Shown: positions 11,553 through 16,818 of the stretch, piece by piece
Layout of the letters: every line of letters starts with the position of its first letter
How positions within the stretch are numbered: position 1 is the stretch's first letter
NCBI GenBank assembly: GCA_028284195.1
Contig: JANQSE010000006.1
Coordinates: 558,001-622,000, forward strand
Direction: 5' to 3'
From: Balneola sp.
GTDB lineage: Bacteria; Bacteroidota; Rhodothermia; Balneolales; Balneolaceae
Length of the DNA stretch: 64,000 nucleotides
Notes under the pieces: model-generated
What the model was told of the DNA's origin: nothing
What the model saw: only the letters and a program-made list of their open reading frames with translations
Database searches by the model: none
Translations under genes and position numbers: made by a program

Positions 11553-11939
11553 TCATATAAACTGTTCAAAATTCAAATGCGAACGCATCAATTCAAAATG
11601 CTTATCAAAAGTGAAAAGTGATAGTTTTTCTTCAATAACCTGCTGGAGAATGATCAAATCCGGTATTCCGACATTATTTATTCCTTTTTTCAGGTTAAGT
11701 ACCTGATACTCCCTTACAATTTCCCAATCTATATTTAAACGAATCAGATCCAGAGCAAAAAGCTCTTCAACTGTTTCATTTTGATTAACATGCTTTAAAA
11801 AAGGAATTAACTCGGTTAGTATAATTTCATTGGTACACACCAGATTTTCTTCAATCAAACGATCAAGATCGGGAATATTCCCACTCCTGAAGTATTCTAT
11901 CCAAACAGAGCTATCTACCAGAACTTTATACTTAGACAT
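11553..11939 (-). CDS. vapC: PIN-domain ribonuclease toxin VapC
   Basis: Probable RNA-cleaving toxin of a type II toxin-antitoxin module. It has 128 residues. The metal-binding acidic set of the PIN domain is visible: D9 in VDSSVWI, E43 in ILTELI, D94 in GIPDLII and D112 in FTFDKHF. All four are present, so it looks active. The start overlaps the vapB stop by one base (TAATG), the typical coupled arrangement with the antitoxin first. The target RNA is unknown. Confidence 0.9.
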   Translation of the reverse strand: MSKYKVLVDSSVWIEYFRSGNIPDLDRLIEENLVCTNEIILTELIPFLKHVNQNETVEELFALDLIRLNIDWEIVREYQVLNLKKGINNVGIPDLIILQQVIEEKLSLFTFDKHFELMRSHLNFEQFI

Positions 11940-12133
11940 TATTTACGATCTCTAAGCACGTCAAGATCAATGTCCAGATCTATAGTTCCTTTTCGGGTTA
12001 TAAGACGTTTTCTTTTAGCCGACCGGATTTGTTCTTTAAGTGCTAATTTAATGGCCTGACTTTTGGTTTTAGCTCCAGTTAATGTCATAGATTCTTTAAT
12101 TAGTGCCTCTGGTATATCTAAAGTAGTTCGCAT
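11939..12133 (-). CDS. vapB: VapB-type antitoxin
   Basis: A 64-residue partner of the adjacent PIN toxin. MRTTLDIPEALIKESMTLTG is the N-terminal ribbon-helix-helix-like DNA-binding sequence of the VapB/DUF2191 group. The basic middle (RSAKRKR) and acidic C-terminus (DLDIDLD) fit toxin neutralisation. It would be expected to repress its own promoter in the 150 bp upstream; no clear operator palindrome was seen there. Confidence 0.88.
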   Translation of the reverse strand: MRTTLDIPEALIKESMTLTGAKTKSQAIKLALKEQIRSAKRKRLITRKGTIDLDIDLDVLRDRK

Positions 12134-12287: not shown

Positions 12288-12836
12288 TTAGCTCAATTTC
12301 TCTAAAAGTGCATATAACATTACTGCAGCAGCCACAGAAACGTTCAAAGAGTGCTTTTGTCCAAACTGAGGAATTGCTATAAAATCTTCTATAAGGTCTA
12401 AGATTTCAAAATCAATTCCTGTGACCTCATTTCCCATCACAATACAGATATTATCATAGTCATTAATGTTCAGGCTATTCAATGGAGTACTTTGCGTTGT
12501 TTGCTCCATCCCAAGAATAGAATAACCACCAGCTTTTAATTCCTGGATGATATCCTCTGCTTTTTCAAAGTGCCTCCATTTAACAAACTCTTCGGCACCA
12601 ATGGCTGTCTTATTTATTTCCGGCCGGGGAGGAGTGGGGGTATAACCTGTTAGAATTAATTCAGAAACCCCAAATGCATCGCAGGAACGAAACACAGAGC
12701 CTACATTATGCAAGCTCCGGATGTTATGAAGTATCATTTTAACCTCAGCGAGCTTTTTCGGAGGTTTCTGAGCCAGGTTTTCTTCGAGTATTTGCTTGGT
12801 GGTAAGTTTTCGGGGCAATGCTAAGACTTTTTCCAA
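12288..12836 (-). CDS. TrmH/SpoU-family RNA 2'-O-methyltransferase
   Basis: SPOUT-class methyltransferase that methylates a ribose in tRNA or rRNA using S-adenosylmethionine. It has 182 residues with the three SpoU motifs: HNIRSLHNVGSVFRSCDA (motif 1), CIVMGNEVTGI (motif 2) and IPQFGQKHSLNVSVAAAVMLY (motif 3, the knot and cofactor site). There is no extra N-terminal RNA-binding domain of the RlmB type, so the target is not assignable. It borders the decayed tetA region at 12966. Confidence 0.92.
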   Translation of the reverse strand: MEKVLALPRKLTTKQILEENLAQKPPKKLAEVKMILHNIRSLHNVGSVFRSCDAFGVSELILTGYTPTPPRPEINKTAIGAEEFVKWRHFEKAEDIIQELKAGGYSILGMEQTTQSTPLNSLNINDYDNICIVMGNEVTGIDFEILDLIEDFIAIPQFGQKHSLNVSVAAAVMLYALLEKLS

Positions 12837-12965
12837 AAGATAGTTATTCTACCGTTACAATTTTGCAGGACTGAAGTTTTTTCAAGACTGCATTACTATA
12901 CCCAAAATCATATACGCTTCCAATTAGCTATCTAGAAATTTGTTATTGCGGCTAATTAATTTTCT

Positions 12966-13190
12966 ATAGCTAAAGAATCCCGGAAAGCAGTGTCCGGTTT
13001 CATTTTTATTACTGTATTGATAGATGTAAATAGTTTGGGGATTATCATCCCAGCTATACCTTCTCTTATTGTTGAGCTAACAGGAGAAGGTTGAGCAAAG
13101 CAGCTATTTATAGCGACTGGTTAATCTTTTGTATATCTCACTCAATTTAATTTTGCTTCTGTAATTGGTGGTTTAAGCGATTGTTTTGGC
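12966..13190 (+). pseudogene. N-terminal remnant of a TetA-type MFS drug/H+ antiporter
   Basis: Read on the plus strand from 12966 the sequence gives [12 protein letters not shown] then [19 protein letters not shown] and [10 protein letters not shown], which is the first membrane helix and loop of TetA-like efflux proteins. The expected ATG reads ATA. After GEG a one-base deletion gives a stop (TGA). Restoring one T continues [14 protein letters not shown] one-base insertion (a fourth T in ATCTTTTGTA) then shifts the frame again, and removing it continues FVYLTQFNFASVIGGLSD, matching the TM2 and GxLSDRFGRRP region. Homology fades at about 13190, inside the 3' end of the opposing DUF6326 gene. 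The 129 bp between trmH and 12966 holds nothing else I can identify. The C-terminal remnant of the same gene type lies at 15949-16260. Homology is judged from family knowledge, not an alignment. Confidence 0.8.
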
Positions 13191-13603
13191 CAATTCCAAG
13201 CTGTCCAAACTATCACAGCCAAAACAATAATTTCTACCAACTGATAAAGTCCATAAAAGGCATACCATTGATTACCTACTCTTAGTATCTGTATAATTAT
13301 CAAAAAAGACATGGTAGACCATAGAACAGCTGTAACGATGTTAAGCCATTTATTGACTATTGGCTTTAATAAAACAGATAGACAAATCATCAACGAGGGG
13401 ATAATCAATATTATGGAAAAAATGACCAGCAACTTTGGCGTTGTTGGCCCTACAGGGGTTTTTAAGTTTATAATATTCTCTATTGTTCCCGGTGTTTTAA
13501 GGTCAAAATAATCGGCATAGATGTATAGGAACATCAAGGAAGACCACAATGCTGCCAACTTTAGTTTTACATTAACTTTTATATCATTTAAAACTCTTTT
13601 CAT
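13142..13603 (-). CDS. DUF6326-like four-helix membrane protein
   Basis: A 153-residue inner-membrane protein with about four hydrophobic helices. LKLAALWSSLMFLYIYADYFDL near the start and the VIVWTAWNWP near the end match what I recall of the DUF6326 family, whose function is unknown. The last 12 or so residues (after WPKQ) are read from the antisense of the tetA remnant, so the native C-terminus has probably been replaced at an insertion junction. It is the promoter-distal member of a minus-strand set with the NTF2-like gene (10 bp gap) and, further up, the LytTR two-component pair. Confidence 0.75.
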   Translation of the reverse strand: MKRVLNDIKVNVKLKLAALWSSLMFLYIYADYFDLKTPGTIENIINLKTPVGPTTPKLLVIFSIILIIPSLMICLSVLLKPIVNKWLNIVTAVLWSTMSFLIIIQILRVGNQWYAFYGLYQLVEIIVLAVIVWTAWNWPKQSLKPPITEAKLN

Positions 13604-13613
13604 AAATCACCTT

Positions 13614-14084
13614 TTACCAATATTCTGCTATACGGGATATTTTGCCTTCCTTAAATTCAAAAAACACCAATTGTGCATGATGGGGAGTAACCACACCTTC
13701 GTCAGTGTTCATCATAAATGTTCTAGATACGGCAACCGCATTCTCACCTACAATGACTTTTTCTATCCGGATATCGGCGACACGGCTATTGTAACTTCCT
13801 TTGGCAAGGTTGTTCTCATAGCCTTTGTATAAGTCATCTTTTGAATAATTACCGCCATACTTAGGATGCGAGTAAACAAAATCGTCGCTAAAGAGTTTGA
13901 AAATATTGTCAATATCTGCCTTGGATGAGCCTTTCTGCATCATTTTGACATTGAGCTTGTAGTACTTTTTAACTATTTGCTCAAGGGAATCTGGTTCTAT
14001 AGCATTTAGTGAGAATGTAGTTTTAGCTTGTACAGGAAAACTGATTGAAACTAAAGCTATAACTGTAAATAATATCCTTTTCAT
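13614..14084 (-). CDS. Secreted SnoaL/NTF2-like protein
   Basis: 156 residues with a clear Sec signal peptide (MKRILFTVIALVSISFPVQA), so it is periplasmic or exported. The mature part is a nuclear-transport-factor-2-like cone fold. Helices cover about 31-62, then a DDFVYSHPKYGG segment, KDDLYKGYENN, and beta strands ending GKISRIAEYW, the usual C-terminal strand of SnoaL-like polyketide-cyclase proteins. Such domains act as small-ligand pockets or enzymes; no specific ligand can be inferred. It is preceded by a 104-bp gap after the response regulator, so it may be a target or partner of that regulator. Confidence 0.82.
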   Translation of the reverse strand: MKRILFTVIALVSISFPVQAKTTFSLNAIEPDSLEQIVKKYYKLNVKMMQKGSSKADIDNIFKLFSDDFVYSHPKYGGNYSKDDLYKGYENNLAKGSYNSRVADIRIEKVIVGENAVAVSRTFMMNTDEGVVTPHHAQLVFFEFKEGKISRIAEYW

Positions 14085-14188
14085 CTTTTATGGGGTTTTT
14101 AACATTTCTAAAGATGAATAAGAAATGGGTAATTATAAATTTTAATCTATGAAAGTGCTTTATTGGTCTATGAAAGTCGAGTTAAATG

Positions 14189-14872
14189 TCAACTTTTTAT
14201 GGACTGCAGCATCTGTTCTTTATGGGTTTTCCCTATAGGTATTTTTAGTTCATCGTTTAGATAAACCAGATTTCCATGTACTTTAGACACCTTATCAAGA
14301 TTGACTATGTAGGAGCGATGACATTGCAAAAAATAAAATCCTTTTAATTTTTCGTTCCAATTCTTCAAACTATCCAGGATTAGGTAATTCCTCTCTGATG
14401 TAACAATATTGATATAGTCGGCTTCGGCCTTTAGAAATAAGATGTCATTGACCTGAATATTATAGAATGCCTTATTAGCATAAACGAACACATTCTTGCT
14501 TAGGGCTCGCTGTTGCTGAATGGCTATAAGATTTCTGATTCTATCCACAGCCTTAAAAAATCGTTCATAGGGGAATGGTTTTAAAAGGTAATCAACAACT
14601 TCTTCCTCAAATGCCTCAAGGGCATAATCTGAGTAAGCCGAGGTTACAATTACTTTTGGTGGATTCTTTAGTGTCTTTAAATATGAAAGACCGCTAATTC
14701 CAGGTAATTGAATATCCAGGAACAAGAGTTCGGTATCTTGAAGTGCTTGCAAAGGAATATGCAGGCCGGATTCATAAAACCCTTGAAAATTGAGAAAAGG
14801 GGTTTGCTCAATATATTTTTTCAAAACCTCTTGCGCCGGTTTCTCGTCTTCAAGAATGATACATTTAATCAT
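14189..14872 (-). CDS. LytTR-family response regulator
   Basis: 227 residues. A receiver domain (1-118) has the acidic pocket EDE (8-10), phospho-acceptor D53 in LFLDIQLPG, the T/S switch in VTSAY, and the KPF lysine. The C-terminal LytTR DNA-binding domain (about 130-227) shows DILFLKAEADYINI and FLQCHRSYIVNLDKV. It overlaps the kinase gene upstream by 4 bp (ATGA). It probably controls genes nearby, such as the NTF2-like and DUF6326 genes. Imperfect direct repeats would be the expected operator, and none was convincing by eye. Confidence 0.95.
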   Translation of the reverse strand: MIKCIILEDEKPAQEVLKKYIEQTPFLNFQGFYESGLHIPLQALQDTELLFLDIQLPGISGLSYLKTLKNPPKVIVTSAYSDYALEAFEEEVVDYLLKPFPYERFFKAVDRIRNLIAIQQQRALSKNVFVYANKAFYNIQVNDILFLKAEADYINIVTSERNYLILDSLKNWNEKLKGFYFLQCHRSYIVNLDKVSKVHGNLVYLNDELKIPIGKTHKEQMLQSIKS

Positions 14873-15879
14873 AATTTTATTTTTAAATCAACGGTAAACC
14901 TAAAATTCTCTGCATTAATTTTTAGCTCATGACTATTCGGGAACAACAATTCAAGTCTTTTTTTAGTGTTCTGAATGCCAATACCACTTTCCTTCCATGT
15001 TACATCCATTTCCTCATTGGTCAAATCTCGGAATGAGTTTTCACAGTAAAATGTGAAATCATCATTATCAAGTACCAACTTAATATGTATCAGGTGCGAA
15101 GTACCCACCAATGTACTGCTATACTTGAAAGCATTTTCAATGAACGAAATCAGTAAAAGAGGAGGAATTTCCTTGTCGTAGTCATCAATTTCTTCTTCCC
15201 AATGAACCATCACTTTGTCTGCCAATCTTTCTTTCTGCAGATTGATATAATCTTTAAGCAGGCGCATTTCGCTGGAAAGCAACACCTTATTTTTCTGCCC
15301 CTCATGAAGTATATACCTAAAACTATCGGACAGCTTTAAAATCAAATCAGCAGTCTTACCGTCTTTTTCAAGAGCACTTGCATATATCGTATTCAAGGTA
15401 TTGAACAAAAAATGCGGATTGATTTGCCCTTTGAGTAATCTTAATTGTGCTTGCTGTTCTTTGGTTGAAATGGTTTCAATCTCCTTTTGCTGCTTGTATA
15501 ATTTTTTGATGGAGTACAAAGCAAAAAAGAATAGACAAATAGATATATGCCTTATCAAAATGGTTAAAACTACCGTCCACTCTTTGTAAATGGGTTTTAG
15601 ATGAAAAAAGTTGTCAGCATAAAGAAAGGCAATCAAATTCAGAGTAAGCATCACAATGATTGACCATGCAATTTTATTTTTAGGAACTTTTGGTAGTATG
15701 AAAAAGTAAAGTGTGTATGCCGGAATCAAATTAAAGCCCAACTCTACAAAGCAATGCGCAGCTCCCATAGTATATCCAGTTTCAACAAACTTCACCGCCT
15801 GAAGAAATAGTGTTGCCATCCAAAAAATGGCATGGAGCCAGGGCTCATACTTTATCAATCTTCTATAAGATTTATCCAT
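14869..15879 (-). CDS. LytS/YehU-type sensor histidine kinase
   Basis: 336 residues. The N-terminal half has four or so hydrophobic segments (about 15-128) and is probably the sensor. A short coiled linker leads to the His_kinase (PF06580-type) domain, with phospho-accepting H156 in INPHFLFNTLN. The HATPase domain has FIENAFKYS (N box) and GIGIQNTKKRL (G box). It pairs with the overlapping LytTR regulator. Its start is 70 bp from the tetA C-terminal remnant on the other strand, placing the right boundary of the inserted block between 15880 and about 15950. Confidence 0.94.
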   Translation of the reverse strand: MDKSYRRLIKYEPWLHAIFWMATLFLQAVKFVETGYTMGAAHCFVELGFNLIPAYTLYFFILPKVPKNKIAWSIIVMLTLNLIAFLYADNFFHLKPIYKEWTVVLTILIRHISICLFFFALYSIKKLYKQQKEIETISTKEQQAQLRLLKGQINPHFLFNTLNTIYASALEKDGKTADLILKLSDSFRYILHEGQKNKVLLSSEMRLLKDYINLQKERLADKVMVHWEEEIDDYDKEIPPLLLISFIENAFKYSSTLVGTSHLIHIKLVLDNDDFTFYCENSFRDLTNEEMDVTWKESGIGIQNTKKRLELLFPNSHELKINAENFRFTVDLKIKL

Positions 15880-15948
15880 TTATCGAAATATTATTGGAAT
15901 TTTTAACAACCTTCAAAATTATCATTAATTGTTATTGAGCCATAGAAA

Positions 15949-16260
15949 AATCATGCATTGTTAGGTCAATACGGAACGAGGGTACCTTTCTTTGTTGCTG
16001 CTGGCTTAACGCTGGTTAATGTGCTTATGCTTTTTTATTCTGCCGTAATCACTCCAAAAAGAAAACAAGCATCTTTCGACATAAAACGAACTAACCCATT
16101 TGTATTTGGTTATTTCACTTTATCAACAGCACCATTTCAATTTTCAGGAGTGGCATTTTTTATGGGATCGGTTTTAATACTCGCAGCTTTTGCAGTAGCA
16201 TTAATATTTCTCGGCAGGGCAAAGCCGATGGAAAGCAGCATTGATAACGAACCCGTTTAA
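15949..16260 (+). pseudogene. C-terminal remnant of a TetA-type MFS antiporter, internally deleted
   Basis: An open frame without a proper start (only a TTG at 15958, with an in-frame stop just upstream at 15943). Residues ALLGQYGTRVPFFVAAGL and the following loop ending FDIKRTNPF correspond to the mid-protein helix 5-6 region of TetA-like transporters. The next residues, YFTLSTAPFQFSGVAFFMG onward, correspond to the very last loop and helix. About 150 residues are therefore missing inside a continuous frame. With the N-terminal remnant at 12966-13190 this is one dead gene broken by the four-gene block between them. The small ORF may still be translatable but cannot form a transporter. Confidence 0.8.
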
Positions 16261-16280
16261 CCGTATTTTAACTTTTGAGT

Positions 16281-16314
16281 GAAGAGCAGCTGATAAAGCG
16301 AGCTCTTCTTTTTG
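16281..16314 (+). terminator. Rho-independent terminator of the dead tetA gene
   Basis: GAAGAGC (16281-16287) pairs with GCTCTTC (16302-16308), followed by a T run. It lies 21 bp after the tetA remnant stop and before greA, so it is probably the original tetA terminator left in place. Confidence 0.65.
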
Positions 16315-16344
16315 TTTCTAGAAATTGAAGATACCTACACAATT

Positions 16345-16818
16345 ATGAGCAATATCCAGTATTTATCACAAGAAGGATACGACAAACTTGATGCCGAACT
16401 CAAAGACCTTAAAACAAGAGGAAGAAAAGAAATTGCGGAAGAAATTGCAGAAGCCCGTGCAAAAGGGGATTTGAGCGAAAATGCAGAATACGATGCTGCG
16501 AAAGAAGCCCAAGGGCATATGGAAGACAGAATCACCAGGTTAGAAGATATACTGGCAAATGCACGTGTATTAGATGCCAGTGAACTTGATCTTTCTCAGG
16601 TGCGGGTGCTTACTAAAGTGACCATTCTGAATAAGAAAATGAACAAGGAAATGCAGTACACATTGGTTTCAGCAAATGAAGCTGACTTTAAAGCGAATAA
16701 AATCTCAATTGATTCGCCCATTGGGCAGGCATTAATAGGTAAATCGGTTGGGGATACTGTAGAAGTAAAAGTTCCTGCCGGTACGTTAGAGCTCGAAATC
16801 AAAAAAATCGAAATTTAA
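16345..16818 (+). CDS. greA: Transcription elongation factor GreA
   Basis: Rescues backtracked RNA polymerase by stimulating transcript cleavage. From the ATG at 16345 the protein is 157 residues, the normal GreA size. A longer frame from a TTG at 16312 would add 11 unrelated residues and begins in the terminator's T run, so I reject it. The coiled-coil tip acidic residues are in KGDLSENAEYDAAKE. The C-terminal FKBP-like domain has SPIGQALIGKSVGDTVEV. It stands alone before the Nudix gene (16 bp gap). Confidence 0.97.
   Translation: MSNIQYLSQEGYDKLDAELKDLKTRGRKEIAEEIAEARAKGDLSENAEYDAAKEAQGHMEDRITRLEDILANARVLDASELDLSQVRVLTKVTILNKKMNKEMQYTLVSANEADFKANKISIDSPIGQALIGKSVGDTVEVKVPAGTLELEIKKIEI

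Follow-up and report, generated by a model that had tools for sequence, protein, structure and literature searches.

Remnants of a TetA-like efflux gene flank a LytTR two-component cassette with a putative operator in Balneola sp.

We analyzed a stretch of 64,000 nucleotides from Balneola sp. (NCBI GenBank assembly GCA_028284195.1, contig JANQSE010000006.1, positions 558,001 to 622,000 of the forward strand; hereafter, the window), focusing on the interval between trmH and greA. Here, a 2.76-kb minus-strand block encoding a histidine kinase, a LytTR response regulator, a secreted NTF2-like protein and a DUF6326 protein (hereafter, the cassette) lies between plus-strand remnants of a TetA-like gene of the major facilitator superfamily (MFS). 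Very probably, trmH-tetA-greA is the ancestral arrangement, the transporter gene was broken by the horizontally acquired, self-contained cassette once this species had diverged from its sequenced congeners, and the cassette would function as a one-operator switch.

The trmH-greA interval in Balneola sp. and its congeners

To establish the ancestral state of the interval, we compared it with seven congeneric genomes. The gene order trmH - intact MFS gene - greA - nudix - surface protein - ackA was found in all seven, with an MFS protein of 408-417 residues encoded between trmH and greA. The cassette was not found between these two genes in any of the seven, and none of them has a match to the NTF2-like protein. 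This is the comparison that had been proposed in an earlier note on this DNA, made from the sequence alone, and it supports the claim of that note that the locus gained a cassette and lost a transporter. The insertion, which the note called dated, is dated in relative terms only, as later than the divergence of this species from the sequenced congeners.

The intact congener gene resembles those of the Tet(A)/(B)/(C) efflux transporters in that its protein aligns across nearly the whole of the respective model (NCBIfam NF012174), with a score of 336 bits. It differs in scoring under the curated cut-off of 475, that is, outside the curated Tet(A/B/C/D) membership, and is therefore referred to as a TetA-like chromosomal MFS gene, for which the score does not demonstrate a role in tetracycline resistance.

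The seven congener TetA-like proteins were used as tblastn queries against positions 12837-16340, and three collinear plus-strand pieces were recovered. These correspond to codons 1-77 (61-65% identity, E 1e-20 to 1e-22), codons 158-205 (50-62% identity, E ~1e-9 to 1e-12) and codons 364-408 (at 16102-16236; 30-51% identity), and the cassette stands in place of codons 78-157. The identical three pieces were obtained by a separate whole-genome search, and DNA alignment agrees, confirming that both of the remnants reported earlier align to TetA-like proteins and flank the minus-strand block. As the pieces match, in collinear order, an orthologue that is intact at this site in each of the seven congeners, they are remnants of that gene. 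No second tetA orthologue was found in the window's genome by the whole-genome search, the next best MFS match being 29%.

All three pieces are decayed. The left one holds one TGA and one TAA and, as the earlier note described, has ATA where the congeners have the start codon ATG. The two opposite single-base frameshifts that it proposed were not upheld; with 76 codons for 77 residues, the piece lacks 3 nt relative to the intact gene, as three single-base losses would produce. For the right remnant, the original terminator named in the note is corroborated by alignment to the congeners. The remnant looks like one open frame, yet losses of 2 bp and 1 bp throw codons ~177-193 out of frame, and codons 206-363 (158 codons) are absent between the two halves, a second deletion outside the insertion. 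Substitutions between the remnants and the congeners fall mostly at third codon positions (e.g., 7/5/27 in codons 1-42), and the second-position changes in codons 1-42 number 5-6 in the remnant versus 1 among the congeners. We infer that selection maintained tetA through most of its existence and that the gene died once the lineage had separated from the sequenced congeners.

The positions of all features are given in Table 1.

Table 1 Features of the trmH-greA interval, in window coordinates.
Feature	Position	Strand	Details
trmH/SpoU rRNA methylase gene, left flank	12288..12836	-	Pfam PF00588; 68-83% identical in seven congeners
Left tetA remnant	12966..13193	+	Codons 1-77; ATA for ATG; in-frame TGA and TAA; net -3 bp
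DUF6326 membrane protein gene	13142..13603	-	Pfam PF19851; native 3' end lost
Left junction	13184..13191		TTTTGGCC common to tetA (..FG..) and DUF6326 3' end (..WPK); candidate microhomology joint
NTF2-like (SnoaL_2/DUF4440) protein gene	13614..14084	-	Apparent signal peptide; Pfam PF12680; 52% identical orthologue after lytR in Leptobacterium flavescens
Putative LytTR operator	14146..14177	-	ACTTTCATAGA-N10-ACTTTCATAGA, perfect, 21-bp period; between lytR and NTF2 gene
lytR, receiver and LytTR DNA-binding response regulator gene, intact	14189..14872	-	Pfam PF00072, PF04397; 79% identical to L. flavescens
lytS-like histidine kinase gene	14869..15879	-	Four predicted long N-terminal helices, His_kinase PF06580, HATPase; 60% identical to L. 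flavescens
lytS upstream/promoter region and cassette right edge	15880..15954	-	tetA homology starts only at ~15955
Right tetA remnant A	15958..16098	+	Codons 158-205; 2-bp and 1-bp losses
Right tetA remnant B	16102..16260	+	Codon 364 to stop; fused in frame with A via deletion of codons 206-363
Former tetA terminator, stem-loop and T-run	16281..16314	+	Aligns with congener terminators
greA, right flank	16345..16818	+	Pfam PF03449/PF01272; 87-92% identical in all congeners

The left junction could be located from the DUF6326 family alignment, in which the relatives end a few residues past a conserved W-x-W-P-K/R. In the window, the W-P-K of this motif overlaps the tetA codons for F-G, and the last ~13 DUF6326 codons to the stop (13142-13183) are antisense tetA. 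The left remnant thus overlaps the DUF6326 3' end, and the boundary implied by the earlier note moves from the DUF6326 stop to ~13184-13191. The sequence TTTTGGCC, common to both sides at this point, suggests that the two were joined at a microhomology. On the right, the cassette ends near 15955. Neither terminal repeats nor a target duplication were found at the cassette flanks, and no transposase, integrase or recombinase was found among the open reading frames, so the cassette does not qualify as a transposon or an integron. The cassette DNA would have entered by illegitimate (microhomology) joining rather than by the action of a transposase, replacing ~240 bp of tetA, and the remaining tetA would have decayed afterwards. 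A perfect 10-bp inverted repeat (TTGTTTTGGC/GCCAAAACAA, at 13181-13190 and 13218-13227) straddles the left junction, which may be a hint of template switching or a chance occurrence.

The events could also have occurred in the reverse order, with tetA decaying first for lack of selection, including the large internal deletion, and the cassette landing later in a dead gene as a neutral scar rather than as the cause of the loss. The decay of all three pieces and the position of the second deletion outside the insertion are in line with this order, as is the size of the window's genome, which at 2.68 Mb (98.5% complete) is the smallest of eight in the genus (others 2.9-3.6 Mb) and suggests wider gene loss. 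We consider this order rather unlikely; the third-position bias indicates that selection acted on tetA for the greater part of its history, although this bias does not tell which event came first.

Outside the interval, a gene pair for a VapB-type antitoxin and a PIN-domain protein (11553-12133) lies between metG and trmH. A PIN relative (75%) was found in only one of the congener loci read (G003).

Cassette genes, their relatives and the mobility of related modules

Pfam searches confirmed the four cassette genes named in the earlier note, and only the label of a LytS-type kinase had to be given up. The regulator has both domains expected of a LytTR response regulator, with PF04397 at 77.8 bits and PF00072 at 52.4 bits, each over its cut-off. 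The kinase has a transmitter region (PF06580, 87.9 bits) with the motif NPHFLFNTLN, and HATPase_c_5 is under the cut-off (18.5 of 22 bits). The 5TMR-LYT sensor domain, which defines LytS-type kinases (PMC10653868), was not found in the kinase (PF07694, Pfam, E<=0.1), so we refer to it as LytS-like only. About four long N-terminal helices are present in its low-confidence predicted model, and a match to 7TM_GPCR_Srh (Pfam) was under the cut-off and was set aside. For the NTF2-like protein, the AlphaFold2 model (predicted local distance difference test score of 81) has a ketosteroid-isomerase fold.

Phylogenetic analyses of LytS and LytR placed the window sequences within a Flavobacteriaceae clade (support 1.0), in an inner clade of four members (0.98-0.995) with Leptobacterium flavescens as the nearest, and apart from every kinase and regulator that represents the window's own family. 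On these trees, lytS and lytR are shown to be of Flavobacteriaceae ancestry. The L. flavescens genome (G426, sequence identical to L069; NZ_JAABOO010000004.1) belongs to the same phylum as the window and to a different class. It has lytS-lytR-NTF2 in the same order and orientation, with a 21-bp-period repeat in the same gap, and differs in that DUF6326 is lacking and a PF00756 esterase gene comes next, in the genomic site and in the diverged sequence of the repeat.

A LytR match at E<=1e-60 is lacking in 294 of the 296 genomes of the phylum sample, and one other genome has a close LytR. Elsewhere in the 92 genomes of the window's family, no LytS above 42% identity was found. The plasmids and the phage collection each yielded only distant kinases and regulators (<60% identity), and relatives of LytR or DUF6326 were not found in viral contigs. 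The NTF2-DUF6326 pairing was not found elsewhere; NTF2 relatives in two genomes (G169 and G748) and DUF6326 relatives in 16 genomes neighbor other genes, some of them DUF4386. The search for the cassette genes at other sites, suggested earlier, was thus successful for lytS and lytR, the relatives of which sit elsewhere with other neighbors in Flavobacteriaceae, and the exact four-gene set was found at no other site.

Evidence of movement comes from two Flavobacteriaceae genomes of different genera (G181 and G451), which share a 2945-bp lytS-lytR-operator-esterase block (L072:8060-11004 and L082:7251-10184) at 96.4% identity, while their ftsZ genes are 76% identical. The similarity collapses on both sides of the block, and in G181 it adjoins IS110, DDE, IS91, integrase and group II intron genes. 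This comparison shows a recent transfer between genera of the lytS-lytR-operator-esterase module, not of the window's own cassette. The payload after lytS-lytR varies, being NTF2 and DUF6326, an esterase, or NTF2 and an esterase. The earlier suggestion that the cassette may be mobile therefore applies to this kind of module and not to the exact four-gene set, around which neither a transposase nor terminal repeats or a target duplication came to light. Upstream of the G451 module is a gene pair encoding an AAA_15/AAA_21 ATPase and an HNH-like protein (L082:11735-13639), possibly a defence system.

The cassette could also belong to a family of mobile modules, each made up of lytS-lytR-operator and an exchangeable payload, that is spread by a dedicated mobile element. 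The sharply bounded G181/G451 block with its excess of identity over ftsZ, the mobility genes beside it in G181 and the differing payloads would all fit. We regard such an element as improbable, as common ends or a recombinase were not found, close matches are absent from the plasmids, the phage collection and the viral contigs, and ordinary homologous or illegitimate transfer would be enough.

A putative operator between lytR and the NTF2 gene

The repeat that separates lytR from the NTF2 gene can also be read as a unit of 10 bp (CTTTCATAGA) and a spacer of 11 bp, at the same 21-bp period. In LytTR sites generally, spacers of 11-13 nt separate two repeats of 9-11 nt (PMC4847170), and the predicted operator, with two repeats and a spacer upstream of the presumed target gene, has this form. 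When up to 3 mismatches were allowed, the pattern had a single match in the 2.68-Mb genome, exactly at 14146-14177, and read backwards it had zero.

The operator is perfect in G181 and has one mismatch in G451, in both directly after lytR and before the esterase gene rather than NTF2. Of the 397 genomes of G181's family, these two are the only ones that carry it within 1 mismatch; eight of the 397 have a close lytR, and both carriers belong to those eight (P = 3.6e-4). The L. flavescens repeat, of the same period and in the same gap, is weaker, and its score was equalled by shuffles in 14% of trials. Matches in two viral contigs, inside repetitive coding sequence, were attributed to chance, and one in G006 at 3 mismatches was judged to be at chance level.

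The system is similar to YpdA/YpdB and BtsS/BtsR of E. coli (PMC5552118, PMC4847170) in combining a membrane histidine kinase and a LytTR regulator with two ~10-bp direct repeats (GGCATTTCAT twice for YpdB) and a single target; BtsR and YpdB control one gene each (PMC5552118), and the target in the window is a predicted one. In contrast, the E. coli targets are transporter genes and are not described within a moving cassette, and BtsS carries 5TMR-LYT and GAF domains (PMC10653868), both of which the window kinase is without. In the proposed mechanism, the membrane kinase would sense an envelope or extracellular signal and phosphorylate LytR. LytR dimers would then occupy the two repeats, set 21 bp apart, and activate a single local operon that encodes the secreted NTF2-like protein and the DUF6326 membrane protein. 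That the repeat is not a LytR operator, with LytR acting on unlinked genes and NTF2 and DUF6326 transcribed as plain parts of a lytSR operon, would agree with a 104-bp gap that could be read through and with the weak L. flavescens repeat, but is very unlikely given that the repeat is perfect, unique in the genome, and at the same place before unrelated genes in genomes of another class.

Probable acquisition of the cassette and its significance

Several observations weigh against the reading of the locus as a transporter gene broken by a horizontally acquired switch. The closest DUF6326 relative (58%) is from the window's own family, and none of the 16 DUF6326 relatives adjoins lytSR or NTF2 within the 1.5 kb read on each side, so the four-gene set is composite and may have been assembled in more than one step. 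The L. flavescens LytR (79%) is nearer than that of G181 (72%), yet the L. flavescens repeat is the more diverged and is non-significant alone. As neither a mobility gene nor a terminal repeat or target duplication was found, the mechanism of insertion rests on the 8-bp match. The lower G+C of the cassette (34.5% versus 38.8% in the window) speaks for acquisition, but the shift is mild, and 3% of same-size windows are equally low.

Insertion of a horizontally acquired cassette into tetA remains the reading we favor. Beyond the earlier note, the analysis brought out the antisense tail with its candidate joint, decay in the right remnant as well, a Flavobacteriaceae origin for lytS and lytR, the putative operator with its conservation, and a sister module moving between genera. 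More tentatively, and with considerable doubt on our part, lytS-lytR and the adjacent 21-bp-period operator may be a portable switch in Bacteroidota, in which sensor, regulator and promoter travel as a unit and the envelope genes behind them are exchanged; the window copy would have crossed a class boundary and taken the site of an efflux gene.

The locus is a clean case, backed by seven outgroup sites that lack the cassette, in which signalling genes were gained at the expense of a transporter. For a group of LytTR regulators that has received little study, it offers a concrete operator prediction, and it suggests that sensor, regulator and DNA site move jointly in these bacteria while the controlled genes change.

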